Below, piece by piece: positions 126 to 20,839 of a DNA stretch of 23,104 nt. This stretch comes from a virus, in IMG/VR virus record IMGVR_UViG_3300010299_000068, positions 1 to 23,104 of that record, one strand, 5' to 3'. The position numbers and the translations under genes were made by a program. Under the pieces are notes generated by a model that did not search any database, had not been told where the DNA came from, and saw only the letters and a list, made by a program, of their open reading frames with translations. Position 1 is the stretch's first letter; each line of letters starts with the position of its first letter.

Positions 126-187
126 AGTGGGGAAAACAAGTTTTTAAATTACTATATATATCATACCGTTTTATAAGGAGATAAGAA

Positions 188-826
188 ATGGCTACATTTT
201 ACGTAGGTCCTAGACCAGTCTTAAAGGGTCGTAGTACTGTTAATATGGTCAACCCATATACAACTATGACCGGCAAAGCAAAGGGTACCGGCACCTATTC
301 TTTCTATCCACTGTACAGCACAGACCATGTACTTGACGGTGCTCCCGATAATCATCATGTTGCTGGTACAGGCCGTCATCCTGGCAACCTGTTCCTGTCA
401 CAACTGTTTACGGGATCTGTTTTCTATGTTCATCCTCTCTCAGGCACATTCCCAGACGGCAGTGCCACGTATGAGGGTGCTAGATTTAGACCATATGAGT
501 ACAAGGGTCTAGAGGGTTCTGTTGCTTTCCCAAGAGATTTTGGTCAAGCAAATCAGTACTTCTCTGAGTACAGCTATAACAATTATATCTTTGATGGTGT
601 AGACTCAGCTAATGTCATGACCGGTGTCGGTCATGCTCAGAGAACCGAGGCTCAAGGGGCGCCAAGTTCATTTGGCTACTTTATCCCAGCTGCCTTTAGT
701 GGTGTTCAAAGTGCTGTTGTCTTCACCGCAGGATATGGTGAGGCTTATCCTACAGGTTATGACAATGAGTATGGGCAAAATAGAGTTCAAGAGTTCCAAG
801 GGGTTCCTTCGGCCAAAGCTCTCTGA
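188..826 (+). CDS. Putative virion structural protein
   Basis: This 212-residue protein starts at an ATG with a strong AAGGAG site at 175-180, seven bases upstream. It is rich in Gly, Tyr, Phe, Ser and Pro, has almost no Lys after the N-terminal part, and has no signal peptide, transmembrane helix or recognisable catalytic motif. That composition is typical of beta-rich tail or head-decoration proteins. Codon choice is unlike most genes to the right: CGT, GGT, GGC, ACC and CTG are common here, whereas the replication genes prefer AGA and T/A-ending codons. This suggests high expression, as expected for a virion component. The gene sits between another structural gene and the holin. I do not recognise the family. 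The last 56 bases overlap the next gene in another frame. Confidence 0.7.
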   Translation: MATFYVGPRPVLKGRSTVNMVNPYTTMTGKAKGTGTYSFYPLYSTDHVLDGAPDNHHVAGTGRHPGNLFLSQLFTGSVFYVHPLSGTFPDGSATYEGARFRPYEYKGLEGSVAFPRDFGQANQYFSEYSYNNYIFDGVDSANVMTGVGHAQRTEAQGAPSSFGYFIPAAFSGVQSAVVFTAGYGEAYPTGYDNEYGQNRVQEFQGVPSAKAL

Positions 827-1076
827 TATATTCTCTGGACCACTTGTTTTAGATTCCAAGGATCGAACAAGCGGAGTTTATGGATGGGTAGCATTGGTCT
901 TGGGTATTATGGCATATGATATTTATGCTATAAAGTCCAGTAAGATCGAAACTCTAACTAGGTCTTTCTGGAGACTAACCGAAAAACCGAGCACAGGGAG
1001 CATATTTATAGGAGCGTGGTTAGGCTTAACTTTTCATCTTCTTATAGAGAAGCTAATACGTAAACAATATAGTTAA
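771..1076 (+). CDS. Small two-helix membrane protein, DUF7427-like
   Basis: The chosen ATG at 771 gives 101 residues. Upstream in-frame ATGs lie deep inside the preceding gene and would add sequence that reads as noise. Two hydrophobic segments are visible, near residues 36-55 (GVYGWVALVLGIMAYDIYAI) and 75-93, separated by a short basic loop with an amphipathic stretch. The arrangement, including the AYDI-A motif at the end of helix 1 and a helix 2 ending H-L-L, resembles small membrane proteins that lie beside tail and lysis genes in actinophages, which I recall as DUF7427. A role in lysis is inferred from its position before the holin. The start is uncertain because no clear ribosome site precedes it and it overlaps the upstream gene by 56 bases. 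Confidence 0.65.
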   Translation: MGKIEFKSSKGFLRPKLSDIFSGPLVLDSKDRTSGVYGWVALVLGIMAYDIYAIKSSKIETLTRSFWRLTEKPSTGSIFIGAWLGLTFHLLIEKLIRKQYS

Positions 1077-1088
1077 AGAGGTTAAATT

Positions 1089-1289
1089 ATGAATAAACTT
1101 TATAAAGACGTAATAGAAAGAGCAGCTTGGACAGCGGCTCAGGCTTTCTTGGCCATTTACACCGTTGGTGGTGTTGATGAGCTCAAGGCTGCCGCGACAG
1201 CTGGTGTTGCAGCTGCTATCAGCGTTCTCAAGGGGTTTGTTGCTACACGCGTCGGTGATCCCGGCAGTGCAGCTACCCTTAAAGGCTGA
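1089..1289 (+). CDS. Holin, phage r1t type
   Basis: This 66-residue protein has a GAGG ribosome site seven bases before its ATG. The layout matches the r1t holin family (PF16945): an N-terminal amphipathic segment carrying ERAAWTAAQAFLA, a short turn, then an Ala-rich helix with AAATAGVAAAISVLKGF, and a C-terminal GDPGSAA motif. Holins of this kind form inner-membrane lesions that time lysis and release the endolysin. The gene ends the late block and is followed by a strong terminator. No endolysin is present in this window, so the lysis genes are either split or continue to the left. The family call rests on the conserved motif pattern and size. Confidence 0.8.
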   Translation: MNKLYKDVIERAAWTAAQAFLAIYTVGGVDELKAAATAGVAAAISVLKGFVATRVGDPGSAATLKG

Positions 1290-1319
1290 AGCTTAAGCTA
1301 CACGTAATACCTTTCCCTG

Positions 1320-1328
1320 TGCTATAAT
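1320..1328 (+). promoter_or_regulatory. Candidate extended -10 promoter element
   Basis: TGCTATAAT is a perfect extended -10 (TG-n-TATAAT). The -35 region, about 17 bases upstream, is poor (ACACGT), which extended -10 promoters tolerate. A transcript would start near 1335. It would meet the terminator at 1353-1380 almost at once, so the site would give a very short RNA unless readthrough is regulated. It is the only gene-free stretch between the holin and the replication block. Confidence 0.4.
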
Positions 1329-1352
1329 GCACGGGTGAAAATCTATAGAGTG

Positions 1353-1380
1353 ACCCCGCCATTAGGCGGGGTTATTCTTT
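1353..1380 (+). terminator. Rho-independent terminator after the holin
   Basis: ACCCCGCC at 1353-1360 pairs perfectly with GGCGGGGT at 1365-1372 around an ATTA loop. The T-rich run TATTCTTTT follows. This is a textbook intrinsic terminator and closes the structural/lysis transcript. Confidence 0.9.
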
Positions 1381-1435
1381 TCATCAGCAAGTTTATAAGT
1401 TTTGGTAGTTTTATTTAAGATTATAAGGGAAGTAA

Positions 1436-2152
1436 GTGTCGTCATTAGATATTGAGTCAGTAGTTGAAGAAAGTGTTCTTCCGATAGATGTCGCCAATAA
1501 GTATCTGAAATTGTATGTCGCTGACATAGAGTGGGAAGAGCACATAGTTCGTTTATGGAATTTGTTTCTTAAAAAAGAAAGTAATGAGAATGTAGCAAAA
1601 GACCAGATGAAAAGAGCGATAGCTTGCGCTACTATACTTCCTCTGGCTGAAAAAGTTCCAATACCTGATCCTCCTCATAATCTTCTTTTTTGGTGTACTA
1701 GGTGGGAGCAATTCAATAGAGATGATTGGTTTGATATATATAAAAGTGTTTTAAAAGAAGATTTAGAAATTTCTAAAAAAAGAAATATTATCATATCAGA
1801 AGGCGTTATAGATCCAATAGATGTTTTACCAATGACTCGTCAAGCATTTAATTGGCTATACGAAAATGTGAAAGAAGATAAAACTGTCAGAGAAGAATCT
1901 TTGGCAGGTGTAAAAGATAAAATCTCTAACCTTGTTAGAGCTTACGGCGGTGCTGTTATCTGTAATATTTTTATGAATCACAAGCATCATGTGAATGGTA
2001 TTCCTAATTGGAGAAGTGGTTATTTTTTTGAGAGAGAAATACATAAGGTTTATACTGTCGACCAGATCTTAAAGATTAAAAAGGCAGAGCTAGCTAAAAC
2101 AAACAATAAATACGTAATCAAAGTAAATAAATCGGGAGTAAAAAATGTCTAA
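1436..2152 (+). CDS. Hypothetical protein upstream of ribonucleotide reductase
   Basis: The start is GTG at 1436, supported by AAGGGAAG at about 1425-1432. The product is 238 residues, mostly helical and charged, with several Trp residues (for example IEWEEHIVRLWNLF near 31-44 and LLFWCTRWEQF near 83-93) and a basic C-terminus. I see no Walker, zinc, HTH or membrane motif and do not recognise the family. Its stop overlaps the reductase start by eight bases, so the two are probably translationally coupled and made together. It begins the nucleotide-metabolism operon after the terminator, so a link to nucleotide supply is plausible, but this is context only. Confidence 0.75.
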   Translation: MSSLDIESVVEESVLPIDVANKYLKLYVADIEWEEHIVRLWNLFLKKESNENVAKDQMKRAIACATILPLAEKVPIPDPPHNLLFWCTRWEQFNRDDWFDIYKSVLKEDLEISKKRNIIISEGVIDPIDVLPMTRQAFNWLYENVKEDKTVREESLAGVKDKISNLVRAYGGAVICNIFMNHKHHVNGIPNWRSGYFFEREIHKVYTVDQILKIKKAELAKTNNKYVIKVNKSGVKNV

Positions 2153-4076
2153 TAATATTCTTAGTGAGGATTTTGTAAACAGCTACATTGGCAAAACAGC
2201 GCCTTGGGGTTTTAATGGTTTAGGGGAAATTGTTTATCGTCGTACATATTCAAGAGATGTTGAGGATCTGGGTAGAAAAGAGTACTGGCACGAGACCATT
2301 GCTCGCTGTATAGAAGGCGCACAGGCAATAGGTGCTAACTATACTAAGGAAGAGGCTGAAAGATTATTTGATTACATATTTAATTTAAAGGGTATATTTG
2401 CAGGTAGATCTCTTTGGCAGCTAGGGACTCCACTGGTTGAAAAGATGAGCGGCGTCTCACTTGTTAACTGCTGGATGACAACCATTTCAAAGGTTGAGGA
2501 TTTTCAGTTCCTTATGGATCATTTAATGGTTGGTGGTGGAGTCGGATTCACTGTTGAAAGAGCAGTTGTTCACGACATGCCGAAGGTCAAGCAGGTTGAT
2601 AGTATTCGACATGAGAAGACTAACGACGCAGACTTTATAGTTCCAGATTCAAGACAGGGCTGGTCCTCTCTTTTGGGTAAAGTTCTGGAAAGCTACTTCC
2701 ACACCGGTAAGTCATTTACCTATAGTACAATTTTGATTAGAGGTTATGGTGCGGCTCTAAAAACATTTGGCGGCACTGCGTCTGGTCCAGAGGTTTTAAT
2801 CGAGGGTATGGCTGATATAGGTAAGATCCTTGATGCCCGTGTTGGTAAAAAGATTCGTTCCGTTGACGCCCTGGATATTTGTAATATCATCGGTAAGATC
2901 GTGGTTGCTGGCTCTGCACGCCGTTCAGCACAAATAGCAATTGGTGATCCAGATGACTTCTTGTATTTGCGCGCGAAGAACTGGTCAAAGGGAGATATCC
3001 CTGCATGGCGCGGTAACTCAAATAACTCCATTTTTGCTGACTCTTACGACGAGATAATTGACGAATTTTGGAAAGGCTATGATGGATCTGGCGAGCCATA
3101 TGGTTTAATTAACCGTGATCTTATTCGCAAGTATGGTAGATTGGGTGAAAAAGTTAATGACAAGGGTGTTATAGGAACAAATCCTTGTGGCGAAATAGGT
3201 CTTGAGGATGGTGAGCCTTGCAATTTAGCTGAGATCTTCTTGCCGAATATCGAAAGCAAAGAAGAGCTTATGGATTTGAGTAAGCTTCTTTATAAAACTC
3301 AAAAAGCTATCACCACTTTAGCTTACCCGTACGCTAAGTCTCAAAGCGTTATTGCTAAAAACCGTAGACTTGGTCAGGGTGTAACTGGTTGGCTTCAGTC
3401 TACTGAGGAGCAGCTGTCTTGGGTTAGCGAATGCTACGAGGCATTAAGAGACTACGATAAAGAGTGGTCTTCTGAGCTAGGTATCAATCCTTCAATTAAG
3501 CTTACAACAGTTAAGCCATCTGGAACTCTAAGCCTTCTTGCTGGTGTCACACCGGGAATTCACCCCGCGTACTCAGAGTATTATATTCGTCGTGTTCGCA
3601 TGGGTAGTAGTGATCCATTGGTGAACTACTGTAGAGAAAAAGGCTACGATGTTCAGTATGACATTGGTCTTGATGGAAAAGAGAATCACACTGTTTGTGT
3701 AGTATCATTTCCCTGTAAGACCCCTGAGCATGCGACTTTGGCTAAAGACTTAACTGCCGTTCAGCAGTTGGAGTGGGTTGTAAAAGCTCAGAGCGAATGG
3801 GCTGACAACAATGTCTCTGTTACAGTTTATTACCGTAAAGAAGAGCTACCTGAAATCCAGGAATGGATGAAGAAGAACTACAAGAACAGATTGAAGTCTG
3901 TTTCATTCTTGCTGCACAGTGATCACGGCTTTGCCTTAGCCCCCTACGAGGAGATTTCAGCTGAGCAATATGGTAAAATGGAGTCTAAGATAAGAGACAT
4001 TACTTTTATTGATGATATAAACGAGTTCTCTCTTGACAACTTGGAGTGTGAAGGCGGAGCGTGTCCTATTAAGTGA
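2145..4076 (+). CDS. nrdJ: Adenosylcobalamin-dependent (class II) ribonucleoside-triphosphate reductase
   Basis: The 643-residue enzyme reduces ribonucleotides to deoxyribonucleotides using B12 radical chemistry. The key residues line up with the monomeric Lactobacillus leichmannii enzyme. NPCGE at 346-350 supplies Asn346, the thiyl radical Cys348 and Glu350. Cys109 (LVNCW) and Cys359 (EPCNLAE) form the active-site redox pair, with the usual 11-residue spacing from Cys348. A C-terminal shuttle pair, Cys635 and Cys640, closes the chain (CEGGACPIK). KPSGTLSLLAGVTPGIHPA at 457-475 is the conserved phosphate-binding region. At 643 residues it is about 100 shorter than the Lactobacillus enzyme. 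GGGAG at 2134-2138 is its ribosome site. The enzyme needs no oxygen and no partner subunit, but depends on cobalamin from the host. It acts in the cytoplasm at the head of the dNTP pathway, with ThyX and the deaminase downstream. Confidence 0.95.
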   Translation: MSNNILSEDFVNSYIGKTAPWGFNGLGEIVYRRTYSRDVEDLGRKEYWHETIARCIEGAQAIGANYTKEEAERLFDYIFNLKGIFAGRSLWQLGTPLVEKMSGVSLVNCWMTTISKVEDFQFLMDHLMVGGGVGFTVERAVVHDMPKVKQVDSIRHEKTNDADFIVPDSRQGWSSLLGKVLESYFHTGKSFTYSTILIRGYGAALKTFGGTASGPEVLIEGMADIGKILDARVGKKIRSVDALDICNIIGKIVVAGSARRSAQIAIGDPDDFLYLRAKNWSKGDIPAWRGNSNNSIFADSYDEIIDEFWKGYDGSGEPYGLINRDLIRKYGRLGEKVNDKGVIGTNPCGEIGLEDGEPCNLAEIFLPNIESKEELMDLSKLLYKTQKAITTLAYPYAKSQSVIAKNRRLGQGVTGWLQSTEEQLSWVSECYEALRDYDKEWSSELGINPSIKLTTVKPSGTLSLLAGVTPGIHPAYSEYYIRRVRMGSSDPLVNYCREKGYDVQYDIGLDGKENHTVCVVSFPCKTPEHATLAKDLTAVQQLEWVVKAQSEWADNNVSVTVYYRKEELPEIQEWMKKNYKNRLKSVSFLLHSDHGFALAPYEEISAEQYGKMESKIRDITFIDDINEFSLDNLECEGGACPIK

Positions 4077-4080
4077 GATT

Positions 4081-4416
4081 ATGGAATCCAACTCAGAAGA
4101 TTTTGAGAAAAGATTTAGTGAGATAATATCATCTGAAGATTTAAAAAAGATATCTGAATCTTTTAAGAAAGAAGAGACGTTTACCCTTCAGGAGCTTCTG
4201 CTGGTTCAGCAGTCGTTGCTGGAGGCTGTATCTAATGTTTCGGAGATTTTGTTTTTACATGTTAAAGATAAAGAAGATTTATTGTTTAGAGATGATAACA
4301 TATATCACTCCTTATTGAGCTGCATTTATAAGATATGTGAAGATTTTAATGAATGTATGATAGAATATAGGGATGAGTTATATGAAGGAGAAGATAGTGA
4401 CGACTTTGATGAATGA
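4081..4416 (+). CDS. Small acidic hypothetical protein
   Basis: ATG at 4081 follows the reductase stop by four bases and is preceded by AAGTGAG, so it is preferred over an in-frame ATG inside the reductase gene. The 111-residue product is highly acidic at its C-terminus (DELYEGEDSDDFDE) and helical throughout, with a leucine-rich middle (LQELLLVQQSLLEAVSNVSE). It may form a coiled coil. No family is recognised. It lies between reductase and ThyX and overlaps the ThyX gene by about 20 bases, so it belongs to the same operon. Confidence 0.7.
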   Translation: MESNSEDFEKRFSEIISSEDLKKISESFKKEETFTLQELLLVQQSLLEAVSNVSEILFLHVKDKEDLLFRDDNIYHSLLSCIYKICEDFNECMIEYRDELYEGEDSDDFDE

Positions 4417-5107
4417 AGATGTAAAGAGTATAGATGTTTTAGGTAATGGTTATGTCAGATTAGTTGATGTCATGGGTTCTGATCTGTCTGTTGTTAATGC
4501 GGCTAGAGCTTCTTTTGCTAAAGAATCTGAAGAGATGTCTCAAAAAGATGCAAGACTTTTAGAGTTTCTCGTCAGAGAGAATCACATGTCTCCTTTCAGA
4601 CATGCATTTGCTACCTTTGAATTTAAAGCTCCCATAATGGTTGCCAGACAGCATTGGAAGTATGTGGTTGGTTCTGATCATACTATGGATTCTTGGAATG
4701 AGTCATCTAGAAGATATATTACTATGGATCCAGAGTTTTACATACCGACGAAAGACCAGTGGAGATTAGCGGCAGATGATAAAAAGCAGGGATCTGGTGG
4801 TCCTGTAGATCCTTTTACCGGTTCTTTTTTGACGGAGGAGCTGGAGCAGTATGTCAAAAAGGGTGAGGAGCTATACAACTCCGCGATGAGTAATGGCGTT
4901 GCCCCTGAGCAGGCAAGACTTTTCTTGGCCGCCTACGGAATGCACGTTGTTTATCGTTGGTCGTGTAGCTTGCAATCTATAGCCCTTTTCTTGAATCAGA
5001 GACTGCAGGAAGATTCCCAAAAAGAAATTCAAGAGTACGCACAGGCGGTAAAAGATCTTATAACACCCAAGTTTCCTGTGAGTCTCATGTTGCTATGTGA
5101 GCAGTGA
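4397..5107 (+). CDS. thyX: Flavin-dependent thymidylate synthase ThyX
   Basis: ThyX makes dTMP from dUMP with methylenetetrahydrofolate, NADPH and FAD. I chose GTG at 4397 because AAGGAG lies six bases upstream. An ATG at 4373 and another at 4409 are in the same frame. From this start the chain is 236 residues. Signature features include HMSPFRHA near 63-70 and ARQ at 83-85 followed by SWNESSRRY at 99-107, the Ser-x-Asn-Glu-x-Ser-x-Arg-Tyr half of the ThyX motif. The usual RHR triplet is replaced by an HWKY region with about eight extra residues before the SWNE part. KKQGSGG lies near 128-134. The following QARLFL segment fits the folate/dUMP-binding C-terminal half. It sits beside reductase and deaminase and completes a dTTP supply route. 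Confidence 0.93.
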   Translation: MTTLMNEDVKSIDVLGNGYVRLVDVMGSDLSVVNAARASFAKESEEMSQKDARLLEFLVRENHMSPFRHAFATFEFKAPIMVARQHWKYVVGSDHTMDSWNESSRRYITMDPEFYIPTKDQWRLAADDKKQGSGGPVDPFTGSFLTEELEQYVKKGEELYNSAMSNGVAPEQARLFLAAYGMHVVYRWSCSLQSIALFLNQRLQEDSQKEIQEYAQAVKDLITPKFPVSLMLLCEQ

Positions 5108-5109
5108 TA

Positions 5110-5271
5110 ATGGATACTGTTATAAAAACAATTATATTTACACTCATGCTGAACTGGTGTATAGGAATGCAGTTTTTAAATCAGGTTGCACAAGATAAGA
5201 CTACTAAGATTTTATCCGTTGCTATATCTCTAGCTACCGGCGCTGCCGCAGCACTGTCTCTTCTGCTATAG
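5110..5271 (+). CDS. Small membrane protein, two predicted helices
   Basis: This short gene fills the gap between thyX and the deaminase exactly: ATG at 5110 lies two bases after the thyX stop, and TAG at 5269-5271 lies one base before the next ATG. A GTGAG site precedes it. The 53-residue product has two hydrophobic helices, about 4-23 (IIFTLMLNW core) and 34-53 (ILSVAISLATGAAAALSLLL), joined by a polar loop with QDKTTK. The C-terminus ends inside the second helix. Size and topology would suit a holin, an antiholin or a membrane anchor, but no family is recognised. The tight fit and clean hydrophobic pattern make it very likely real. Confidence 0.75.
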   Translation: MDTVIKTIIFTLMLNWCIGMQFLNQVAQDKTTKILSVAISLATGAAAALSLLL

Positions 5272-5272
5272 T

Positions 5273-5731
5273 ATGATTTCTAGAAAAGATGTTCAATACA
5301 TGCAGCTGTGTCTTTCTGCTGCCGGAATATTTTCTACGTGTGGTAAAAAGAAATACTGTGCAGTTCTAGTAGATAATTTGGGCCACATAGTTGGTGTCGG
5401 ATACAATGGTGGCCCCAAAGGAAGTGTTCATTGCGAAGATGGCGGATGCCCTAGGTATATAGAGAATAGTCCTAGTGGATCTGTGTATGATAATTGTATT
5501 GCTATACACGCAGAAGCTAATGCTTTCCTTCATTCGGACTACTCTTCTCGGGCTAAAAAACTTTATGTAAATGGACCCCCGTGCTTCGGTTGTGCTAAAA
5601 TGATATGCAACTCAACCATTGAAGAGGTGTATCATTTAAAGGATGACACATACTCTGACTGGAGTAAGGTGAAAGAGTTTTTGGAATCAAGTTCAGTTAA
5701 AGTCATAGAGGTGCCATATGCCCGCATCTAA
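5273..5731 (+). CDS. Deoxycytidylate (dCMP) deaminase family protein
   Basis: The protein is 152 residues and carries the zinc-dependent cytidine/deoxycytidylate deaminase signature: HAE at 79-81 (zinc ligand His79, proton shuttle Glu81) and PPCFGC at 102-107 (zinc ligands Cys104 and Cys107). GVGYNGGPKG at 41-50 is the substrate-loop motif usual in dCMP deaminases. Extra cysteines at 54 and 59, in an H-C-E-D-G-G-C context, resemble the additional zinc site of T4-like dCMP deaminases. The enzyme converts dCMP to dUMP, the substrate of the ThyX encoded just upstream. The gene directly follows the small membrane protein gene. Confidence 0.92.
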   Translation: MISRKDVQYMQLCLSAAGIFSTCGKKKYCAVLVDNLGHIVGVGYNGGPKGSVHCEDGGCPRYIENSPSGSVYDNCIAIHAEANAFLHSDYSSRAKKLYVNGPPCFGCAKMICNSTIEEVYHLKDDTYSDWSKVKEFLESSSVKVIEVPYARI

Positions 5732-9117: not shown

Positions 9118-9773
9118 ACAAGAATCGGAAGACTTACAAAAAAGTTGATCCCGATGACTTAGACTTTTTGACGGACCTTCTTTTTGATAGCGACCTCTCA
9201 ATATCTGCTATAGCCTCTGAGCTTGACGTAAGCGTAAAAGAGGTTAATAGTATGATCAACCATCTTGGTCTTTCTTGGTTAAAAGAATCAAGAAAAAAGA
9301 TGTCAAGAGGTCAGACAGCTTTAACTAACATTATGAAAAAGCTTCTTCCTGGAGAGGAAGTTGTTAATGAGTTTCATATTGGAAATAAGATGAAGCTTGA
9401 TGTCTATTGTCCGAGATTTAAACTCGCTGCAGAGTATCATGGTCGTCAGCATTTCTACTTCACAAGTAGATTTTATGATTCTAAATATGATTTTGAGCAG
9501 GCTCAGAAAAGAGACGAAGAGAAAGTTCAGTATTGTAAGGATAATGGAATAGCTCTTGTTGTATTTAGGTATAACGATTCTCTGACTGAGCAGAGCGTTT
9601 ATGATAGAATGTTAGATGCTATAAGAGATACTCCAATTGAGCCACGTATTCCTAGGAAAAAGTATTCTGTGATTAATTCAGACTTCTATAAAGAAATGAA
9701 GAAGAAGAATTCAGAGTATCGAAAAGAAGCATATAGAAGAATGAAGGACTCTAAACTTGATGGCAATAGATGA
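9114..9773 (+). CDS. HTH plus PD-(D/E)XK endonuclease, Vsr/DUF559-like
   Basis: This 219-residue protein has two parts. Residues about 15-58 (LTDLLFDSDLSISAIASELDVSVKEVNSMINHLG) form a helix-turn-helix DNA-binding domain. Residues 66-155 form a Vsr/DUF559-like nuclease core: GQTALTNIMKKLLPG, Glu86 (NEFHI), Asp96 (KLDVYCP), Glu107-x-His109 (AAEYHGRQHF) and FRYND at 151-155. A basic tail follows. The active-site pattern Glu...Asp...Glu-x-His/Gln is complete, so an active DNA nuclease is expected, perhaps for nicking, mismatch processing or branch cleavage. It starts in an ATGA overlap and ends overlapping the helicase gene, placing it in the replication operon. The substrate is unknown. A homing endonuclease is possible but less likely given the tight coupling. 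Confidence 0.75.
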   Translation: MNKNRKTYKKVDPDDLDFLTDLLFDSDLSISAIASELDVSVKEVNSMINHLGLSWLKESRKKMSRGQTALTNIMKKLLPGEEVVNEFHIGNKMKLDVYCPRFKLAAEYHGRQHFYFTSRFYDSKYDFEQAQKRDEEKVQYCKDNGIALVVFRYNDSLTEQSVYDRMLDAIRDTPIEPRIPRKKYSVINSDFYKEMKKKNSEYRKEAYRRMKDSKLDGNR

Positions 9774-11214
9774 AGAGCTGGATGTTCAAGAGACAAACTT
9801 AGAGTATCAGGTATTCGCACTCTGCTTTAAGGAGCAGGGTGCAATATCTTTTTTCAACAAGAATCTACCTGATGATATTGTCGGAATTGTTCATGGGGAA
9901 AAAGGTATTCACGAGTTTTACTCTGCTCTAGTTTCTTATCATAGGTCTACTGGTTTAGACGTGGTGGATCCCAACGCATTTAAGCTGTGGCTTTCAGACG
10001 AGACCGATATTTACGCTGCCCTTGGAGGATCTGAGGGTGTCGGTGTAATGATGTCTTATATATCTGATTTAGAGACTGCAAGCAAAGAGTCTTTAGCTGA
10101 GCTTGTTAAGCATAAGGCAAGTAAGAAGAAGCAGTCTAATTATTTAGATGAGCTTCGTCTACTAATATCTAAAAAGGGTCTTCGTAGTGATGAGGATATA
10201 GCAAGAATTAGTTTCTTGACTTCTCAAATCAACGAGATTGAGTCCCTTGTAAAAAGAAATCCTTTTGAAGATATAACCACTGCTAATGATATCTCTAGTA
10301 GAGCAGTAAAACTTCTTGATATACCAGACTTTGTTCCAACACAATTTAAGTCCTTGAATAGAGCCATGGGTTATACGGATGAGGGCGGCTTCTTTAAGGG
10401 GGCTGTGCATGCTGTCATAGCCCCCTCAGGTAAGGGTAAGAGCACTTTTGCTAAGTGTCTAGCTAATCACTGGCTGGATAATAATTATCGTGTTCTTTAC
10501 GTTAATTTTGAAGAGGCTATAGGTCACTGGGAAAGAATATTAATGACTCAAATTTTAGGTCAGAATGTTTACTCGGAAGCAGATAAGTGGTCTGAGCAGC
10601 AGAAAAAAGAGAACATAAGAATTTTTCAGGAGAAGTTATCTCAATGGGGTGATCGTCTTATGGTTAGACATGATCCCGACACTCCTTATTTTGAGGATTT
10701 AGAGTCATGGCTTAGAGAGCTGGTTGGGTCAGATGCGCCAACTCCCGATGTGGTGATTATAGATACTATTCAGTCTATGTTCACGCGCGGCAAAGGTAAA
10801 CCTCGTTGGGGTGAGTTTGAGGAGATGATGGTTAAGCTTGAGAAGCTTGCTAGAGACATGAATTGTGTCTTAATAATTACTGCTCAAGAGAATTCAAATA
10901 GAATGAAAGAGAAAAGAGAGGTTGTTCAGCAGTCTGATACCGGTGGTTCGCTAGCCATTCAACAGAAGTGTGCCGTCACTATCTTCATAACAGAGAAGCG
11001 CTTAGCAACCGATGACGATACTGAAGATGAGAACATAATGCAGCTACAGATACCTAAGAATAGGATTACTGGCTCTTCTTTTACTTATGATCCTCCTTTG
11101 GTTCGTTATGTTGACAGTAAGAAAATTTATGAAGATTATGAAGTTGTTGGAGATAGTTCTTATTCAGAGTCATCTGCTTTTAATGATCTTTTAAATGGAG
11201 AGGGATTTGACTAA
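9760..11214 (+). CDS. dnaB: Replicative DNA helicase, DnaB family
   Basis: The 484-residue protein has an N-terminal domain of about 160 residues with DnaB-like helical spacing, a linker, then a RecA-like motor. The Walker A motif APSGKGKST lies near 221-229. NFEEA near 249-253 gives the catalytic glutamate region. VVIID near 331-335 is Walker B, and the Gln of IITAQE near 376 is the DnaB sensor. PKNRITGSSF near 432-441 is a basic hairpin typical of the family. It would form the hexameric helicase that moves on the lagging strand and recruits the primase encoded nearby. ATG at 9760 is used. A TTG at 9757, one codon earlier, has slightly better spacing to AAGGA. An acidic C-terminus follows the motor. 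Confidence 0.92.
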   Translation: MAIDEELDVQETNLEYQVFALCFKEQGAISFFNKNLPDDIVGIVHGEKGIHEFYSALVSYHRSTGLDVVDPNAFKLWLSDETDIYAALGGSEGVGVMMSYISDLETASKESLAELVKHKASKKKQSNYLDELRLLISKKGLRSDEDIARISFLTSQINEIESLVKRNPFEDITTANDISSRAVKLLDIPDFVPTQFKSLNRAMGYTDEGGFFKGAVHAVIAPSGKGKSTFAKCLANHWLDNNYRVLYVNFEEAIGHWERILMTQILGQNVYSEADKWSEQQKKENIRIFQEKLSQWGDRLMVRHDPDTPYFEDLESWLRELVGSDAPTPDVVIIDTIQSMFTRGKGKPRWGEFEEMMVKLEKLARDMNCVLIITAQENSNRMKEKREVVQQSDTGGSLAIQQKCAVTIFITEKRLATDDDTEDENIMQLQIPKNRITGSSFTYDPPLVRYVDSKKIYEDYEVVGDSSYSESSAFNDLLNGEGFD

Positions 11215-12678: not shown

Positions 12679-12814
12679 TAGATATCATCTAATTAGTATT
12701 CTTGATTGGATTATTAAAGAGTCCGTTTATCATAGGACTCATTCAGATAATTTTACAGAAGATCCAATTCATGTTAATATTGATGCGGAAGAAATTAAGG
12801 CTGTAATAAAATGA
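12638..12814 (+). CDS. Small hypothetical protein between HD hydrolase and primase genes
   Basis: Reading the 130-base gap in the third frame gives an open frame that ends TGA at 12812-12814, overlapping the primase ATG in an ATGA arrangement. ATG at 12638 gives 58 residues. They form a basic start (MKSGEKTKSQR), an amphipathic helix around YHLISILDWIIKESVYH and an acidic end containing DAEEIKAVIK. The 5' part overlaps the HD gene by 41 bases. No clear ribosome site is seen, so coupling is likely. No family is recognised. The clean composition and exact abutment support it as real. Confidence 0.65.
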   Translation: MKSGEKTKSQRIANRYHLISILDWIIKESVYHRTHSDNFTEDPIHVNIDAEEIKAVIK

Positions 12815-14025
12815 AAGTACCCTCAGATCCTGACAAGTATCTGCATCAGTGGAGAAAAGTTGAGATAGCTAAATATGTGCCGTCTTTATCTAGGGTTATA
12901 AGGGTTAAAGATGGTGACAATCCTGTATTCTTAGATCTTGATGACATCAATTCATTTAGGGAAGAGAATAATAATACCGGCTTATATACGTCAATCTGGC
13001 ATTACAATACTTCCAACATAGATGATGCAGTGAGATTGGGTTCTTTGTATTTTGATATAGATAATCAAGATATGTCGCAGTCATATTCGGAATGTCTACG
13101 ACTGTATGAGTATCTGCTGTCCTTTGTTCCAGAGAATGCTGTCCTTGTGTACTTCACTGGCAAAAAGGGTTTTCATATAGAGTGTGAGGCTGTCACGCTG
13201 GGGGTGAATCCATCCAACAATCTTCCAAACATTTATAGATGGATAGCCGGAAAGCTGCAGAAAAAGTTAGAGCTTAGCAGTTTAGACTTTAGCGTTTATG
13301 ATGCTAGAAGAATGTGGAGACTTGAGGGTTCAGTTCATCAAGATACTGGTCTGTATAAGAATCTTTTGTCTGATGACGTTTTCAGATCAGGTATTGACTC
13401 AATAGTCGAGTATTGCGGTGAAAGATCTGACAATACTGTTGATGAGCAGACTTTTGATCCTAAGGCTAATGAGTGGTTTCGTGAACATATCTATGATCTA
13501 GAGATAGACAAGGAAAGATCTAAGGACTTCATGGCTTATTTCAATAAGCATGGTTCTACTGCATTTAAGGAATATAAGGAGTACGATAAAGAGTTTACTC
13601 CCAAGAGATTATTAGAGGGATGTACGGCAGTAAAGAGATTGTGGCAGCAGGCGATTGATACTAAGTTTTTAGAGCATGAGGCAAGACTGTTTCTGTGTTC
13701 TATTCTTTCATATAATGAGGAGTCTATTAAGTTTCTTCATGGAATACTCAGCAATTGCGAGGACTATAATGTTGAGAAGAGCAATAGCCATATTAACGAC
13801 TGGATTAGAAGACGTCAGCTTGGCATAGGCGGTAGACCTTTCACTTGCGAGAGAGCAAATGCTGCAGGTGTCGGATGTGGTGAATGTTCGTTAGAGAGAA
13901 AAAATAAGTGGGTTAAGATTGGCGATAGGTATGTTGAGACAGACGAACCTACCTCTCCTTCGCCAATAAGATTTGCCTACGTTAGTATAAGAAAGGAGGT
14001 AGACCATGGCAGTGGAAAATCCTGA
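12811..14025 (+). CDS. Archaeo-eukaryotic type (AEP/PriS-like) DNA primase with C-terminal PriL-like Fe-S domain
   Basis: The 404-residue protein makes RNA primers for replication. AEP motif I is LYFDIDNQD (Asp82 and Asp84, metal-binding). Motif II is GKKGFHI at 117-123, the s-G-x-k-G-x-H-i pattern. Motif III is about DARRMWRLEGSVH at 164-176, the usual R-x-x-R-x-x-x-S-x-H, followed by a TGL-x-K segment. From residue 265 to 366 a second, helical domain holds four widely spaced cysteines (Cys271, Cys316, Cys346, and Cys356 or Cys359), like the 4Fe-4S domain of the large primase subunit PriL. One chain thus combines the two primase subunits. No DnaG-type TOPRIM motif is seen. It is coupled by ATGA to the gene before and lies two genes from DnaE. 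Confidence 0.82.
   Translation: MKVPSDPDKYLHQWRKVEIAKYVPSLSRVIRVKDGDNPVFLDLDDINSFREENNNTGLYTSIWHYNTSNIDDAVRLGSLYFDIDNQDMSQSYSECLRLYEYLLSFVPENAVLVYFTGKKGFHIECEAVTLGVNPSNNLPNIYRWIAGKLQKKLELSSLDFSVYDARRMWRLEGSVHQDTGLYKNLLSDDVFRSGIDSIVEYCGERSDNTVDEQTFDPKANEWFREHIYDLEIDKERSKDFMAYFNKHGSTAFKEYKEYDKEFTPKRLLEGCTAVKRLWQQAIDTKFLEHEARLFLCSILSYNEESIKFLHGILSNCEDYNVEKSNSHINDWIRRRQLGIGGRPFTCERANAAGVGCGECSLERKNKWVKIGDRYVETDEPTSPSPIRFAYVSIRKEVDHGSGKS
13992..14000 (+). promoter_or_regulatory. Full-length Shine-Dalgarno site
   Basis: AAAGGAGGT matches the 16S rRNA anti-SD over nine bases, five bases before ATG 14006. It is the strongest ribosome site in the window and lies inside the end of the primase gene. 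It should give high, independent translation of the zinc-ribbon protein and may also feed ribosomes toward the coupled polymerase gene. Confidence 0.85.
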
Positions 14026-14212
14026 TGATGTAGTTGGCGTTTGCTCTGAGTGTCATTCAGATCAGCCAGATAAATATATGTACAACAGCCCTTTTGCACA
14101 AGAGGGTAAGCCTGTCCCGTGCAAGTATTGTGGCGGGGTAGTTATTATTACTTATCGTGAGATTAGAAATGAGGCCTTAAAGGACTCAGATGGCGGTAGA
14201 GGAATTTCGTGA
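14006..14212 (+). CDS. Small zinc-ribbon protein
   Basis: The 68-residue product has two CxxC knuckles, Cys13-x-x-Cys16 (VCSECHSD) and Cys39-x-x-Cys42 (PCKYCGG), spaced as in a zinc ribbon. A short acidic/basic tail follows. It overlaps the primase gene by 20 bases and the polymerase start by four (GTGA), so it is wedged between the two main replication enzymes. Zinc ribbons of this size may bind DNA, RNA or a partner protein. No specific family is recognised. A replisome accessory role is inferred from place and strong translation signal. Confidence 0.75.
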   Translation: MAVENPDDVVGVCSECHSDQPDKYMYNSPFAQEGKPVPCKYCGGVVIITYREIRNEALKDSDGGRGIS

Positions 14213-17200
14213 AAAATTGGACTAATCTTCATAACCATACTGTGTACTCCATGCTTGATGGACATGGGGATATAGAGCAGTATCTGGATAGAGCTAAGAA
14301 GCTTGGTATGTCAGGTATTGCTACTACGGATCATGGAAATATACATTCTTGGTTAGATTTTTATGATGCTGGCACAGCTGTTGGTGTAAAGCCAATTCTT
14401 GGTTCTGAGCTTTATCAGGCTAGGAAAACTAGATTTGATAGAGATGAAGAGGAGCGTTCTGGCCCTGCTAAAAACGAGTGGGAGCAGCGCGGTCCTTACC
14501 ATCTGACTGTTTTAGCTAAGAATAAATCTGGTTATGATAATCTAATTAAGATATCTTCTCGCTCTTATTTAGAGGGCTATTACGTTAAACCTAGAGTTGA
14601 TCATGATCTAATTTCTCAGCATAGTGATGGTTTGATAGTTCTTTCTGGCTGTCTTAATGGTGAAGTGGCTCAAGCTCTGCTTAGAGGGGATTATGACTTT
14701 GCTCTACAGTCTGCTGCCAAAATGCAGGAGATAGTTGGTAAGGAAAACTATTTTATAGAAGTTCATAATCATGGTTTGCGTGAGCAAATCGGTATCATAT
14801 CTGATCTAGTTAAAATAGCTGAAACGATAGGTGCCAAAGTTGTTCCTTCTGGCGACTGTCATTATGTTCACCGTGAAGACGCTAAGGCACATGACATTAT
14901 GTTGTGTGTTTCTACTAACGCAACGATTCATACTGAAAATAGGTTTTCTTTTACTGGAGATAATTTTTATCTTCAGTCCTATGAAGAAATGTGTCAAACA
15001 TTCTCTGAAGAGTGGTTAAGAAACAGTATGGATGTTTGCGATATGGTTGATTTAGACTTAAGATTTGGGGAAATATATTTCCCTGATTTTCCTATACCTA
15101 CTGAAGAAACTTCTGTAGAATATTTTGAGCGACTAGCTTGGGAGGGCTTAAAGAAAAGATATGGAGATCCTTTACCTAATGATGTTATCGAACGTGCAAA
15201 GCATGAAATCAAAGTTGTTAAAGAGATGGGTTTCCCTGAATACTTTTTGGTTGTTTCCGATCTTGTTAAATGGTCTAAGAATAATGACGTAAGAGTTGGA
15301 TGGGGTAGAGGCTCTGCTGCCGGCAGTGTTCTTTCTTATGCTTTTGAGATAACGAATTTAGATCCGATTAAGTTCGGATTGATGTTTGAGCGGTTCCTTG
15401 TTGAGGGAAGAAAGTCAATGCCAGATATTGACCTTGACTTTGATGACCGATATAGAGACAAAGTTATAGATTATGCTAGAGAGAAATATGGTCACGATAG
15501 AGTTGCTCATATTTGCACCTTCAATAAGACTGGCGCTAGACAGTCTATAAGAGACGCTGCAAGAGCTCTTGGCTACGGCTTCTCTGAGGGTGACACGGTA
15601 TCTAAGCTCGTCCCTCCGCCCGTTCTAGGCATCTCTAAGACGCTCTCAGAGTGTATGGACGTAGAAGATTTCGTATCCGAATACAACTCTAATCCTGTTT
15701 CAAAAGAGATTATAGATACAGCTTTTGGCTTAGAGGGCATTGTTAGGCAGACCGGTATACACGCTGCGGGCGTAGTTATTTCTCGTGGCCCACTTGTTGA
15801 CTATCTCCCAGTCATGCAAAAGGGTTCTGACAATCCTCTGGTAACTCAGTGGGATATGGGTCGGGTAGAGCAATGTGGAATCCTTAAGATAGATTTTCTA
15901 GGTTTACGTAATTTAGGTGTTATAGATTCCTGTGTTCGCCTAGTAAAAAAGCATAGAGGTATCGATATAGATGTAGAGGATATACCTCTTGACGATGAAG
16001 TTACATACAACGAGCTTTGTAAGGGTAACTGTATCGGTGTATTCCAGTTGGAATCTTCCTCCATGCGTCAGATGATGGTTGCGCTTCAGCCAAAAAGCAT
16101 TGAAGACATAATGGCCCTGATCTCTTTGCATAGACCTGGTCCCATGGGCTCTGGTATGGACCGTGAGTATATAGATCGTAAGCATGGTCGAAGCAAAGTT
16201 ACATATGAGCACCCGAAACTCAAAGAGGTACTAGAGCCATCTTTGGGGATCATGCTGTATCAGGAGGATGTTTTAGGTGTAGCAAGAGAGCTGGCTGGTT
16301 TCACTTCAGCAGAAGCTGATGATTTAAGAAAAGTTATTGGCAAGAAGTTGATGGACAAGATACCTCAAATGAGATCTAAGTTTGTTGAAGGTTGTGTCGA
16401 GTCTTCTGATATAACTGAAACTCTTGCTAATAAAATATTCTCTGATATTGAATACTTTGGTGGCTACGGATTTAACAGAGCCCATGCCGCCAGCTATGCA
16501 ATGATCAGCTACATAACAGCTTACCTTAAATCAAACTATACCGTAGAGTATATGGCTGCTCTTATGAGTTCTGTTGTTGGAAATAAAGACAAGCAGGCTC
16601 TATATCTTTCTGACTGTAGAAAGCTGGGTATAGATGTTTTGGCTCCGTCAATTAATAGATCAAAAATAGATTTTGAAGTCATTGATAAATCTACAATTAT
16701 TTTTGGTTTGTCAGCTGTAAGTGGTATTGGACATTCTATAGCAGAAGCGATTGTTGGTTGTCAGGATGATGATCATCCTTTTGAAAATATATTTGACTTC
16801 TTTAGAAGATGTGATCCAGTTGTTTTAAAGAAAAGTACTTTAGAGCATTTGGTTCGAGCCGGAGCTTTTGATGAGCTTCTTATAGAAGATGCGCCAGAGG
16901 TTGGTAGATTAAGTGAGCTTGAAGTCTTAGAGTCAGAAAAGGATGAGCTTGGTATATATGTTACGGATCACCCGGTTGCAGGCATATGGGATATTCTTTA
17001 CAAGAAGATTGATTGTGAGATTATAAATCTTGATGAGCAAGAAGCAGGTTCTCATATAAGAGTTGGCGGAATAGTTACATCAGTTAAAAACATTACGACC
17101 AAAAAGGGTCATAAGATGTATAAGATTGTTTTAGAAGACATATCTTCTGATGTTGAAGTTATTATATTTCCCCGCGATGCAAAGAAGCTGACAAGAGAAA

Positions 17201-17529
17201 TACAAAAAGGTGATATATATATTATATCTGGAAACGTTGTTAAAGAAGGCGACGACGAGAATGCCCTAAACAAGTTATATTATTCTTCTTGTGAGCAGAT
17301 TGATTCTCATATGATGTCTTCTGGTAGAGCAATGGTTTTTGAGGTAGATAAAGCACTCTCTGCCTCGGTTGTAGAAAAGATTTATGATATAATTAGTTCT
17401 GCAAGAGGTGATAGACCTGTGTTTTTGCAGGTTAATGAGGGTCGCCACAAATATTTGTATAAGTTTAATTTAGATGCTTCTCCTAAGGTTGAAGAATCTA
17501 TTAATAGTATTATAAGCCTGGAGGTATAA
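14209..17529 (+). CDS. dnaE: DNA polymerase III alpha subunit (DnaE type) with intact PHP proofreading domain
   Basis: GTG at 14209, with GGTAGAGGA upstream, gives 1106 residues. The N-terminal PHP domain keeps all nine metal ligands known from the self-proofreading mycobacterial DnaE1: His8, His10, Asp17, His42, Glu67, His98, Cys148, Asp216 and His218. The polymerase core has GWGRGSAAGS near 364-373, PDIDLDFDD at 405-413 with catalytic Asp406 and Asp408, and KIDFLGLRNLG at 560-570 with Asp562. HRPGPMGSG follows at 641-649. Helix-hairpin-helix and OB-fold regions follow (OB strand IRVGGIVTSVKN at 950-961). Between GAFD (885-888) and LGIYVTDHP (914-922) only 25 residues remain, where bacterial enzymes carry a longer segment with the clamp-binding motif. 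It copies phage DNA with the helicase and primase encoded upstream. No separate proofreading subunit is seen here. Confidence 0.95.
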   Translation: MKNWTNLHNHTVYSMLDGHGDIEQYLDRAKKLGMSGIATTDHGNIHSWLDFYDAGTAVGVKPILGSELYQARKTRFDRDEEERSGPAKNEWEQRGPYHLTVLAKNKSGYDNLIKISSRSYLEGYYVKPRVDHDLISQHSDGLIVLSGCLNGEVAQALLRGDYDFALQSAAKMQEIVGKENYFIEVHNHGLREQIGIISDLVKIAETIGAKVVPSGDCHYVHREDAKAHDIMLCVSTNATIHTENRFSFTGDNFYLQSYEEMCQTFSEEWLRNSMDVCDMVDLDLRFGEIYFPDFPIPTEETSVEYFERLAWEGLKKRYGDPLPNDVIERAKHEIKVVKEMGFPEYFLVVSDLVKWSKNNDVRVGWGRGSAAGSVLSYAFEITNLDPIKFGLMFERFLVEGRKSMPDIDLDFDDRYRDKVIDYAREKYGHDRVAHICTFNKTGARQSIRDAARALGYGFSEGDTVSKLVPPPVLGISKTLSECMDVEDFVSEYNSNPVSKEIIDTAFGLEGIVRQTGIHAAGVVISRGPLVDYLPVMQKGSDNPLVTQWDMGRVEQCGILKIDFLGLRNLGVIDSCVRLVKKHRGIDIDVEDIPLDDEVTYNELCKGNCIGVFQLESSSMRQMMVALQPKSIEDIMALISLHRPGPMGSGMDREYIDRKHGRSKVTYEHPKLKEVLEPSLGIMLYQEDVLGVARELAGFTSAEADDLRKVIGKKLMDKIPQMRSKFVEGCVESSDITETLANKIFSDIEYFGGYGFNRAHAASYAMISYITAYLKSNYTVEYMAALMSSVVGNKDKQALYLSDCRKLGIDVLAPSINRSKIDFEVIDKSTIIFGLSAVSGIGHSIAEAIVGCQDDDHPFENIFDFFRRCDPVVLKKSTLEHLVRAGAFDELLIEDAPEVGRLSELEVLESEKDELGIYVTDHPVAGIWDILYKKIDCEIINLDEQEAGSHIRVGGIVTSVKNITTKKGHKMYKIVLEDISSDVEVIIFPRDAKKLTREIQKGDIYIISGNVVKEGDDENALNKLYYSSCEQIDSHMMSSGRAMVFEVDKALSASVVEKIYDIISSARGDRPVFLQVNEGRHKYLYKFNLDASPKVEESINSIISLEV

Positions 17530-17894
17530 TGGCTGCTAAAGGAACGTACAGAAATCCTTCAACAAGAGATTGTTGGAGATTTTGCAATTCATGCAATCGT
17601 TGCGCAGACAAAGGTAAGTATGCTAAGTGTGCGGACTGTAGTGGTAGATATGACCCTGAGGGGCGCATAGATGCTGATAGAGATGATTACTGTGATTGTA
17701 CTAGTGGTGTTTTAAGATGGAAGACTCAGCAGGGTCGTTTAATTATAACGCGCTTTAAGACTAATCCCTTTAAGGGTGAGGTTAGGTATCAGAAGAAGTC
17801 TGAGGATGAAAGAGACTGGGACTCTTACGTTAATGATATGCGTGAGAAGTTGAATGATCCTAACTGGAATCCTATTACGATATACGAGGAGTGA
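17529..17894 (+). CDS. Cysteine-rich putative zinc-binding protein
   Basis: The ATG overlaps the DnaE stop by one base and GGAGGT lies three bases upstream. The product is 121 residues. The first half carries eight cysteines: Cys15, Cys19, Cys22, Cys25, Cys34, Cys37, Cys55 and Cys57. They are grouped so that two zinc sites are likely. The second half is basic then acidic, with RLIITRFKTNPFKGEVRYQ and a DWDSYVNDMREKL helix. No family is recognised. Its place behind the polymerase gene suggests a nucleic-acid or protein-binding accessory factor. Confidence 0.7.
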   Translation: MAAKGTYRNPSTRDCWRFCNSCNRCADKGKYAKCADCSGRYDPEGRIDADRDDYCDCTSGVLRWKTQQGRLIITRFKTNPFKGEVRYQKKSEDERDWDSYVNDMREKLNDPNWNPITIYEE

Positions 17895-19391: not shown

Positions 19392-19958
19392 ATGGAACCA
19401 TATGTTGTCAAGTCCAAGGACTTTTTTTTGGAAAAATCTTCCTTCGTTAAGCATCCGAACCTCAATAATATCAGAAACAAGTCGATGGATCAAGAGATTC
19501 TCGAACATGACGGGGTAGTTAAGAGGAGTGCTGGTAATGCGTACAGATATACCAGGACTGGATTCAGGAAGGATATAGGTCTGAATGTTAGATCTAGTTG
19601 GGAAGCAAATTTTGTTCGTGTTTTAAATATATATAAAATAGAGTTTGATTTTGAACCTACTGTTTTTGCTTTTCCTATTAAGAGGGGAACTAAAGCTTAC
19701 ACTCCAGATTTTTTTCTAGGGAACAATTCTGATTGGATAGAGGTTAAAGGATACTTAGATGATAAAAGTAAAATTAAACTAAAAAGATTTAAGAGGTATT
19801 ATCCAGATGAGTTTTCTAGACTTACTTGTGTTATTGGAAAGTATTCCAAGGCAGCAAGAGAATTTATGGCAGAGATAGAAGTTCCGGCTGTTGTTTATTA
19901 TGAGGATATCAGAGATGAGTATGCAGAATATATTATAAATTGGGAAGGTAAAAAATGA
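19392..19958 (+). CDS. PD-(D/E)XK endonuclease, T7 endonuclease I (Holliday junction resolvase)-like
   Basis: The 188-residue protein has an N-terminal basic region and then a compact nuclease core. VRSSWEANFVRVL at 66-78 holds Glu71. FDFEPTVFAFP is the strand before YTPDFFLGN at 103-111 with Asp106. WIEVKGYL at 115-122 supplies Glu117 and Lys119. This order (S-x-x-E, Y-E/D-F-E-P, Y-T-P-D-F-L, E-V-K-G-Y) matches phage T7 gp3-type resolvases, which cut branched DNA. A related family of TnsA-like or repair nucleases is an alternative. It is the first gene of the right-hand operon, downstream of its own promoter, and overlaps the sigma gene by an ATGA junction. A role in resolving replication or packaging intermediates is likely. 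Confidence 0.8.
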   Translation: MEPYVVKSKDFFLEKSSFVKHPNLNNIRNKSMDQEILEHDGVVKRSAGNAYRYTRTGFRKDIGLNVRSSWEANFVRVLNIYKIEFDFEPTVFAFPIKRGTKAYTPDFFLGNNSDWIEVKGYLDDKSKIKLKRFKRYYPDEFSRLTCVIGKYSKAAREFMAEIEVPAVVYYEDIRDEYAEYIINWEGKK

Positions 19959-20839
19959 CCGAGACAAAAACAAAAGATAAGGCTAAGCCTAAAAAAAGTT
20001 ATAAGGAACAGTATTATTCTTTAGATGAAGAAGAAATGCAGGAGCTAATCAGGCTTGCCAAAACTGGCTCATCTAAACATCAAGAAGAATTGCTTAAAGT
20101 CTTCAGCAATTTTCTTACTAAATATTCTTCTCTTCTTTTTTATGGTAAGTATAATTTAAATGATTATGATATCCGAAGGTTTGTCTCTCTTTTTATAAAA
20201 GATCCTGGTACTCGTTTTTCTTTAATGAAACAAAAGTTTACTCCAGCCGTAATTAAAAATGTTAACGAGTGCATGAGGGGTATTCACTATATGGCAAGAA
20301 GGTATGGTGACGAAGAAGACATTAAGCAGACTGTATATATGACTTTCTTTCAGTGTATAAACAGATATGAAAGAAAGGGTAGTATACCTTTTAGTGGTTT
20401 TCTTTATAGTTATTTTTTCTATTTATTAAAGAAAAATGTAGATGTTTTTCTTATCGATCAGTTGGGTAGGAAAACGTTCCCGTTGCTAGCCGATGAGTCT
20501 ACTGGTGATGAAGATTCTGAAGAGAAGCATGTTGGATTTAAGGCTGACCCGGTAGAGTATAGTTTAGAACAGATGCTGGCGGCAGATAAGATAGATGAAT
20601 TCTGGGTCATGGGTGAGTCAAACATGGTTCCGTTTGATAGACTAACGGTTCAAGAGCGGCAGCTTTTGAAGTGGAGGTATGTTGATGGGCACCGGTCAAG
20701 TCAGATATCTCAAAAAATAAATGAACATCCCAATACTGTTCGTGAGCATCTGGTTAAGATACGCAGCAAGATCAAAGATGCTATAATTGAGTGTGATCTC
20801 GAAGAGTATGTGACACTGATAGACATGGAGAAGTCTTAA
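19955..20839 (+). CDS. Sigma-70 family RNA polymerase sigma factor
   Basis: The 294-residue protein has a region 2-like helical domain containing YGDEEDIKQTVYMTFFQCINRYE at 117-139, then a SGFLYSYFFYLLKKN helix. A C-terminal region 4 follows: LTVQERQLLKWRYVDGHRSSQISQKINEHPNTVREHLVKIRSKIKDA at about 230-276, with a clear helix-turn-helix. A region 2 extension (about 60-110) and a long acidic linker (180-215) separate the domains. It probably replaces the host sigma to transcribe phage middle or late genes. Its targets are unknown, and the AT-rich promoters in this window look host sigma-like. The N-terminus is very Lys-rich. Confidence 0.87.
   Translation: MTETKTKDKAKPKKSYKEQYYSLDEEEMQELIRLAKTGSSKHQEELLKVFSNFLTKYSSLLFYGKYNLNDYDIRRFVSLFIKDPGTRFSLMKQKFTPAVIKNVNECMRGIHYMARRYGDEEDIKQTVYMTFFQCINRYERKGSIPFSGFLYSYFFYLLKKNVDVFLIDQLGRKTFPLLADESTGDEDSEEKHVGFKADPVEYSLEQMLAADKIDEFWVMGESNMVPFDRLTVQERQLLKWRYVDGHRSSQISQKINEHPNTVREHLVKIRSKIKDAIIECDLEEYVTLIDMEKS

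Follow-up and report, generated by a model that had tools for sequence, protein, structure and literature searches.

A phage DnaE family with a shortened interval at the position of the internal clamp-binding segment

Introduction

How does a replicative DNA polymerase stay on its template when the segment by which its bacterial relatives dock onto the sliding clamp is missing? The question is raised by a dnaE gene within a 23,104-base virus record from IMG/VR, which was analysed over its whole length and is called the window here. The phage protein shares the PHP, Pol3, finger, (HhH)2, OB and C-terminal domains and the catalytic Asp triad with bacterial DnaE1 enzymes, e.g., E. coli alpha and M. 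tuberculosis DnaE1 (7pu7). The bacterial proteins, however, carry the clamp motif in an interval of 65–74 residues, whereas the corresponding interval of the phage protein has 25 residues and lacks the motif.

The motif has been reported in 99% of DnaE1 and as absent from five Deferribacteres and five Bacteroidetes DnaE1, and these motif-less enzymes are described as prompting the question of how they come to be processive (PMC3919608). The same account gives a non-canonical motif for about 85% of DnaE2 and states that DnaE2 proteins have no C-terminal domain (PMC3919608). As for phages, some jumbo phages (subgroup 3.2) are described with a host-derived Pol III alpha including the PHP domain, and other jumbo phages with a minimal split Pol III alpha from which the other Pol III domains are absent (PMC7824862). 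By this description, a phage Pol III alpha that lacks the clamp region has precedent (PMC7824862). Among the matches listed for open-licence papers, no title or abstract start describes the phage clade presented here.

Results

Domain organisation of the phage DnaE

The dnaE gene lies at positions 14,209–17,529 on the plus strand, starts with GTG and encodes a protein of 1106 residues, which Pfam, the AF2 model and Foldseek all identify as a C-family DNA polymerase III alpha subunit. The PHP, DNA_pol3_alpha, finger and HHH_6 domains were matched above the Pfam cut-offs, placing the protein in the C family, and the OB domain was also matched. The (HhH)2 domain is intact (residues 807–890, positions 16,627–16,878; PF14579, E 5.7e-22). 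The OB region spans residues 949–1031 (positions 17,053–17,301), with the PF01336 match at residues 951–1013 and strands in the AF2 model. The C-terminal domain (residues 1032–1106, positions 17,302–17,526) is kept, as recognised by hhalign, in which residues 1030–1106 match the C-terminal ends of bacterial DnaE1 at E 3.6e-6 with a probability of 87.5, but it belongs to the most variable parts of the protein, with 3 of 75 residues invariant.

The AF2 model, calculated from 46 sequences, has a pLDDT of 88.1 and a pTM of 0.82 and replaces a poorer one from 28 close relatives (pLDDT 67.3). Its top Foldseek match is M. tuberculosis DnaE1 (7pu7, E 9.4e-90), and the ranking by VIA-align Z is headed by 5lew and the E. 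coli chain 2hnh; all of these are DnaE. One scan of genome contigs gave 30 relatives, the best being 36% identical.

The short interval is shared by the sampled family

The motifs GAFD (residues 885–888) and LGIYVTDHP (residues 914–922) enclose a 25-residue remnant (residues 889–913, positions 16,873–16,947) of the interval that carries the clamp motif in DnaE1. An earlier note, made from the letters of the window and focusing on positions 16,861–16,950 (residues 885–914), had claimed both the length of 25 residues and the lack of a clamp motif. Translation and alignment bear out the length, and the second claim holds throughout the sampled family. We aligned the source DnaE with 87 distinct relatives above a threshold of 60% identity (88 rows, 66.5–100% identical), which were taken as the best 80 of 143 (67–100% identical), the best 80 of 258 and the best 80 of 572 matches in three viral searches and therefore represent close kin. 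One row (L080) ends ahead of the interval, leaving 87 measurable rows, in which the interval comprises 25 residues in 59, 26 in 27 and 28 in one. None of these 87 rows contains Qxx[LMIF]F in the interval, and the family thus lacks the internal QxxLF-type motif that marks DnaE1. The recurrence in 87 of 88 rows rules out a sequencing error as the cause, and the short interval is clade-wide within the sampled relatives.

Residues 889–899 form the most variable of the stretches tested, with 1 of 11 positions invariant and, across 28 sequences, an average of 7.55 different residues at each position. Given this variability, the remnant linker is a spacer and holds no replacement motif. In the AF2 model, the helix of residues 900–914 comes straight after the short linker. 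The aligned sequences give good support to the idea that this DnaE, its docking segment gone, departs from the normal mode of host-clamp use.

The interval in bacterial and other phage DnaE proteins

For comparison, we measured the same interval in 17 bacterial DnaE1 rows (E. coli and 16 from genome searches) and 14 DnaE2-type rows. The labels follow HMM score order and agree with the tree wherever a row was included in it. E. coli K-12 DnaE has 67 residues, including QADMF. The 16 measurable DnaE1 rows span 65–74 residues, of which 15 carry Qxx[LMI]F and the remaining one QMNFF; for the M. tuberculosis chain 7pu7, about 70 residues were estimated from the ends of two aligned stretches. The phage interval is 40–49 residues shorter than in the 16 measurable bacterial DnaE1. 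The earlier note, which had put the bacterial interval at about 50 residues longer, was right in direction and named the top of the range. The same short interval in clamp-dependent bacterial enzymes would have counted against the inference of the earlier note, and none of the 16 has it. DnaE2-type intervals range from 47 to 113 residues in the 13 measurable rows, with a single Qxx[LMI]F (QPLLF). The unmeasurable rows are B1_L150, where an in-frame TAG, which was not read through, breaks the ORF, and B2_L178, which is truncated. The former derives from L150, which belongs to G027 (Gemmatimonadota by its title, and the genome of L084); the best-scoring DnaE frame of this genome has one in-frame TAG.

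Annotated or deposited records provided 16 phage DnaEs, of which three have the motif (QFDLF in PIS136, QMSLF and QMTLF in gut phages) and 13 lack it. Forty further viral DnaEs longer than 650 residues (37 distinct; three proteins under 650 residues were left out), found with the PIS136 protein, include eight with Qxx[LMI]F and 32 with none, two of the 40 giving no interval. Nine of them have a clear [LA]GxYxxxHP; among these, seven carry Qxx[LMI]F (two being identical proteins), one carries AFTLF and the last has no such peptide. In most of the remaining phage DnaEs without the motif, divergence is too great for the interval to be matched confidently. Qxx[LMI]F is missing from the interval in the Pol III alpha of Yaboi, Belfort, Finch, LRRHood and other phages, but these proteins are deeply divergent, most of those compared having no clear LGxYxxxHP, and the same deletion cannot be claimed for them. 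The two motif-bearing phage records searched for a PF02767 clamp gene, PIS136 and scaffold MT835501, have no match, so that, with the motif kept in seven of the nine viral DnaEs above, borrowing of the host beta clamp may be usual for such phages. At 1993–5139 (minus strand) of the PIS136 record (L112), a "Na+/proline symporter" has been annotated antisense to the dnaE gene, probably wrongly.

Loss of the clamp motif is not unprecedented, as it is described for some bacterial DnaE1 (PMC3919608) and occurs in other phage DnaEs. The Deferribacteres and the few Bacteroidetes DnaE1 resemble the phage enzyme in being apparent main replicases without a recognisable beta motif; the phage enzyme differs in being phage-encoded and in having most of the segment deleted, as far as the bacterial ones can be compared by description only (PMC3919608). 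The exceptional character implied by the earlier note needs qualification accordingly: the loss itself is real, but motif-less phage and bacterial DnaEs exist.

Probable descent from the DnaE1 side

A quick LG+G4 tree was calculated for 57 rows from residues 1–888, excluding the interval, and rooted at the midpoint; as it came with long-branch warnings, we use it for coarse placement only. B1_L150, B2_L178, the near-copy W_L003 and the fragment B1_L165 were omitted. The phage family forms one clade (support 100) and joins PIS136 and Hydra with an SH-aLRT of 97. The family is placed on the DnaE1 side, away from DnaE2, although the joining branch has a support of only 82 in this midpoint-rooted tree. 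PIS136, Hydra and their relatives are likewise phage-encoded and DnaE1-like, but PIS136 has an interval of 70 residues with QFDLF, and Hydra one of 57 residues with a degenerate site. Because the nearest branch includes the motif-bearing PIS136, the absence looks like a lineage-specific loss, and the simplest reading of the alignment and tree is that some 40–50 residues were lost in the ancestor of the family.

DnaE2/ImuC proteins share a weak or absent canonical beta motif with the phage family. They differ in their intervals of 47–113 residues, their basic median pI, their separate clade and the lack of a C-terminal domain, the last as reported in PMC3919608. The phage DnaE neither falls within the DnaE2 clade nor lacks the C-terminal domain, and we reject a DnaE2 origin on its tree placement, C-terminal domain and pI.

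Active sites, the PHP loop and isoelectric point

The catalytic residues Asp406, Asp408 and Asp562 (D401, D403 and D555 in E. coli; PMC3919608) are invariant in all 28 sequences of the family alignment A1. So are the nine PHP positions H8, H10, D17, H42, E67, H98, C148, D216 and H218, taken from the ligand list of PMC4731781, with PMC12926913 as a further source for the groups and PHP residues. The claim of the earlier note that the catalytic aspartates and all nine ligands are kept accordingly extends to these 28 sequences. The phage DnaE thus has an intact nine-residue PHP metal site, which is common but not universal in DnaE1. No DnaQ-type exonuclease (PF00929) was found in the 10 relatives searched, which, together with the retained ligands, fits self-proofreading by the PHP domain.

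The loop between the metal ligands E67 and H98 (residues 69–98, positions 14,413–14,502) is among the most conserved parts of the protein, with 21 of 30 residues invariant in A1; residues 1–68 have 48 of 68. At residues 81–92, the majority residue averages 95% within the family and 1% match DnaE1. Its codons also vary little (3.2 distinct codons per position vs. 5.7 overall), and residues 83–92 are predicted with low confidence (pLDDT under 50). PIS136 and Hydra have long loops at this position too, of different sequence. Being set between two metal ligands, the loop may serve the nuclease as well as it may serve a partner.

A more basic protein with tighter DNA binding could in principle compensate for the lost contact, but we see no sign of it. 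The median pI of the phage family (5.5) is like that of DnaE1 (5.9; 8.8 for DnaE2), and the HhH region is more acidic, with a median pI of 5.2 compared with 8.5 in eight PIS136/Hydra-type phage DnaEs.

Search for a second clamp contact in the polymerase and its neighbours

No widely conserved QxxLF-type peptide was found elsewhere in the DnaE chain, either by loose patterns in 28 sequences or by the strict pattern Qxx[LMI]F in all 88 rows. The loose patterns conserved in 28 of 28 sequences, QCGIL/QCGLL at residue 555 and QEDVL/QEDIL at 685, both lie in the catalytic core. A weakly clamp-like QxxVF/QxxVM at residue 193, in a PHP helix, occurs in 15 of 28 family members and is absent from the source DnaE. 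A QLMMQL-like hexamer at 621 is present in nine of 28, QLGIY at 913 in five of 28, and other loose matches in one or two. The strict pattern is found as QKKIF at 193 in two rows and as QTIIF at 828 in one. We judge none of these to be a clade-wide clamp motif.

The scan was extended to the 31 genes of the window, 26 of which have at least four distinct sequences, and yielded two conserved clamp-type matches, QARLF in the product of 4373–5107 and QEELL in the sigma-like product of 19,955–20,839. We judge both unlikely as clamp motifs. The former protein we take, by eye, for ThyX; the latter has weak matches to RNA polymerase sigma factors. Among the ORFs of seven relatives, 127 groups had four or more members, and these yielded four conserved matches: a QARLF protein (presumably the same as that of 4373–5107), a Baseplate_J protein, a 3817-residue protein and a 1436-residue protein. 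The last (L137:8271-12578, minus strand, in G001) has no Pfam match and carries QMGLF near its C-terminus, the Qxx[LMI]F form being present in six of six members, which makes it a possible clamp binder.

No known clamp family and no family A polymerase were found in the relatives searched

A phage processivity factor had been suggested earlier, and a clamp-like gene was searched for in the relatives, many of which are fragments. No DnaN, gp45 or PCNA family member was found: PF00712 and PF02768 (DnaN) and PF02916 (gp45) had no match in 24 relatives, PF02767 (DnaN) none in 10, and PF09116 (gp45) and PF00705 (PCNA) none in 12. As a positive control, PF09116 finds T4 gp45 at 4.2e-53; PF02767 does not. 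When 339 ORF groups were compared with the DnaN profile, the best probability was 4.3%; the sensitivity of this comparison is limited, as it missed T4 gp45 given as a single, C-terminally cut sequence. The loader family PF13177 showed weak matches below the cut-off in eight of 12 relatives; the one in G001 falls in an AAA_2/ClpB_D2-small protein that we read as ClpX-like. Many conserved ORFs of the relatives have no family match.

G001 (the L044 contig, 216,024 bases) matches 25 of the 31 scanned genes of the window. Its first 5538 bases (1–5538) recur at 207,378–212,915 with 100% identity, and with this repeat the contig seems to cover a whole genome of about 207.4 kb. Beyond the repeat lie a further 3.1 kb with partial 96% copies, which look like an assembly oddity. 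G001 also encodes a RecA.

DnaE is single-copy in each of the seven large relatives. We found no family A polymerase in 12 relatives and no Pfam polymerase domain in 20 large ORFs.

Two Cys-rich proteins flank dnaE

Directly upstream of dnaE, a gene for a 68-residue protein with two conserved Cys pairs (14,006–14,212, plus strand) overlaps the dnaE start by 4 nt; directly downstream, a gene for a 121-residue protein with eight conserved Cys (17,529–17,894, plus strand) overlaps the dnaE stop by 1 nt. Each is found, always on the dnaE strand, in 78 of the 80 loci, which are the best 80 among 143 relatives; 72 loci have the 68-residue gene, and 73 the 121-residue gene, within 60 nt of dnaE. The two loci without the former start inside dnaE and the two without the latter stop inside it, so each gene is present in all 78 loci that cover its place. 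Many of these loci are near-copies; the distinct sequences aligned number 51 and 50, respectively, the source included. In separate ORF lists of the seven large relatives, the 121-residue protein appears in six, the exception being G005, whose own locus (L025) has the gene, which makes the ORF filter the likely cause of the gap.

Neither protein has a Pfam or PHROG match, nor a tblastn match (E 0.1) in 50,697 phage records, from which the records nearest the source were possibly excluded. A small gene before dnaE in Hydra was considered as a homologue of the 68-residue protein, but the two do not align. We regard both proteins as candidate partners of the polymerase, although co-regulation alone can account for the conserved adjacency.

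Farther upstream, 12,811–14,025 (plus strand) encodes a primase-like protein (phrog_16345 primase, E 3.2e-26; no Pfam match), with orthologues in 76 of the same 80 loci, and 9757–11,214 (plus strand) a DnaB-like helicase (phrog_19, E 6.6e-37), with orthologues in 56 of 80, many of the loci being short.

Discussion

At the sequence level, the sampled family combines a short interval with intact active-site residues, has no widely conserved second QxxLF-type peptide and, in the relatives searched, no clamp of a known family. A distributive enzyme, or one reaching host beta via a partner, would leave the same traces. The phage DnaE is probably held on DNA by some means other than the docking segment. 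We propose that a clade of large tailed phages probably relies on it as the replicative polymerase and that it would still replicate the phage genome. Its ancestor would have been a motif-bearing, DnaE1-like enzyme that lost some 40–50 residues between (HhH)2 and OB, including the peptide for the beta-clamp pocket, presumably once, in the ancestor of the family. Contacts other than the internal beta-binding peptide may then keep the enzyme at the fork. Economical candidates for such tethers are the two Cys-rich proteins beside dnaE, or the helicase and primase; the partners perhaps touch the conserved PHP loop or the C-terminal domain. This reading, a replicase that lost its docking segment and is tethered by other contacts, with phage partners as the leading candidates, is the one we prefer, but tentatively, at somewhat less than an even chance. 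That DnaE and the two Cys-rich proteins together make up a clamp-free C-family replicase, with non-ring subunits sitting on the PHP loop or the C-terminal domain, is a much bolder proposal, which we think improbable.

Host beta could also still be used, indirectly or via a non-canonical surface, with host tau bound to the C-terminal domain, a phage partner bearing a divergent clamp peptide, or a host exonuclease on the PHP domain. The retention of the C-terminal domain would suit such an arrangement, as would the presence of a clamp in bacterial hosts when the relatives searched have no phage clamp family, and in the mycobacterial DnaE2 mutasome it is ImuB that is described as carrying the beta-binding motif (PMC10421592). 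The variability of the C-terminal domain, however, argues against such an arrangement, and the two conserved matches among the 31 neighbouring genes include no convincing clamp-type peptide; we consider indirect use of host beta rather unlikely, yet a serious contender. The earlier conclusion, that host-clamp use is not of the normal kind, accordingly stands at the level of sequence, but it does not extend to full avoidance of the host clamp, to which contact may persist through a partner or a non-canonical surface. A phage sliding clamp diverged past sequence recognition might hide among the many conserved ORFs without a family match, all the more as the DnaN-profile comparison missed T4 gp45. 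The profile that does find T4 gp45, PF09116, nevertheless has no match in 12 relatives, the other clamp profiles have none in the 10–24 relatives searched, the best DnaN-profile probability is low, and loader matches are weak and below the cut-off; we regard a hidden clamp as unlikely. Still less credible to us is a distributive enzyme without any tether, as proposed for B. subtilis DnaE, where removal of clamp binding is reported to have left replication, damage tolerance and mutagenesis unaffected (PMC12309361). There, PolC is described as carrying out the bulk of synthesis (PMC12309361), whereas the phage DnaE is single-copy in the seven large relatives, with no second polymerase detected by the searches above.

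The short-interval DnaE is a real but not unprecedented variant. The clade offers a clean natural case for the processivity question raised for motif-less DnaE1 (PMC3919608), with one detected polymerase and the segment missing in all measurable relatives. It also offers an apparently complete relative genome and two named candidate partner genes. If a C-family replicase does work without a clamp in these phages, this would amount to a new replisome design.
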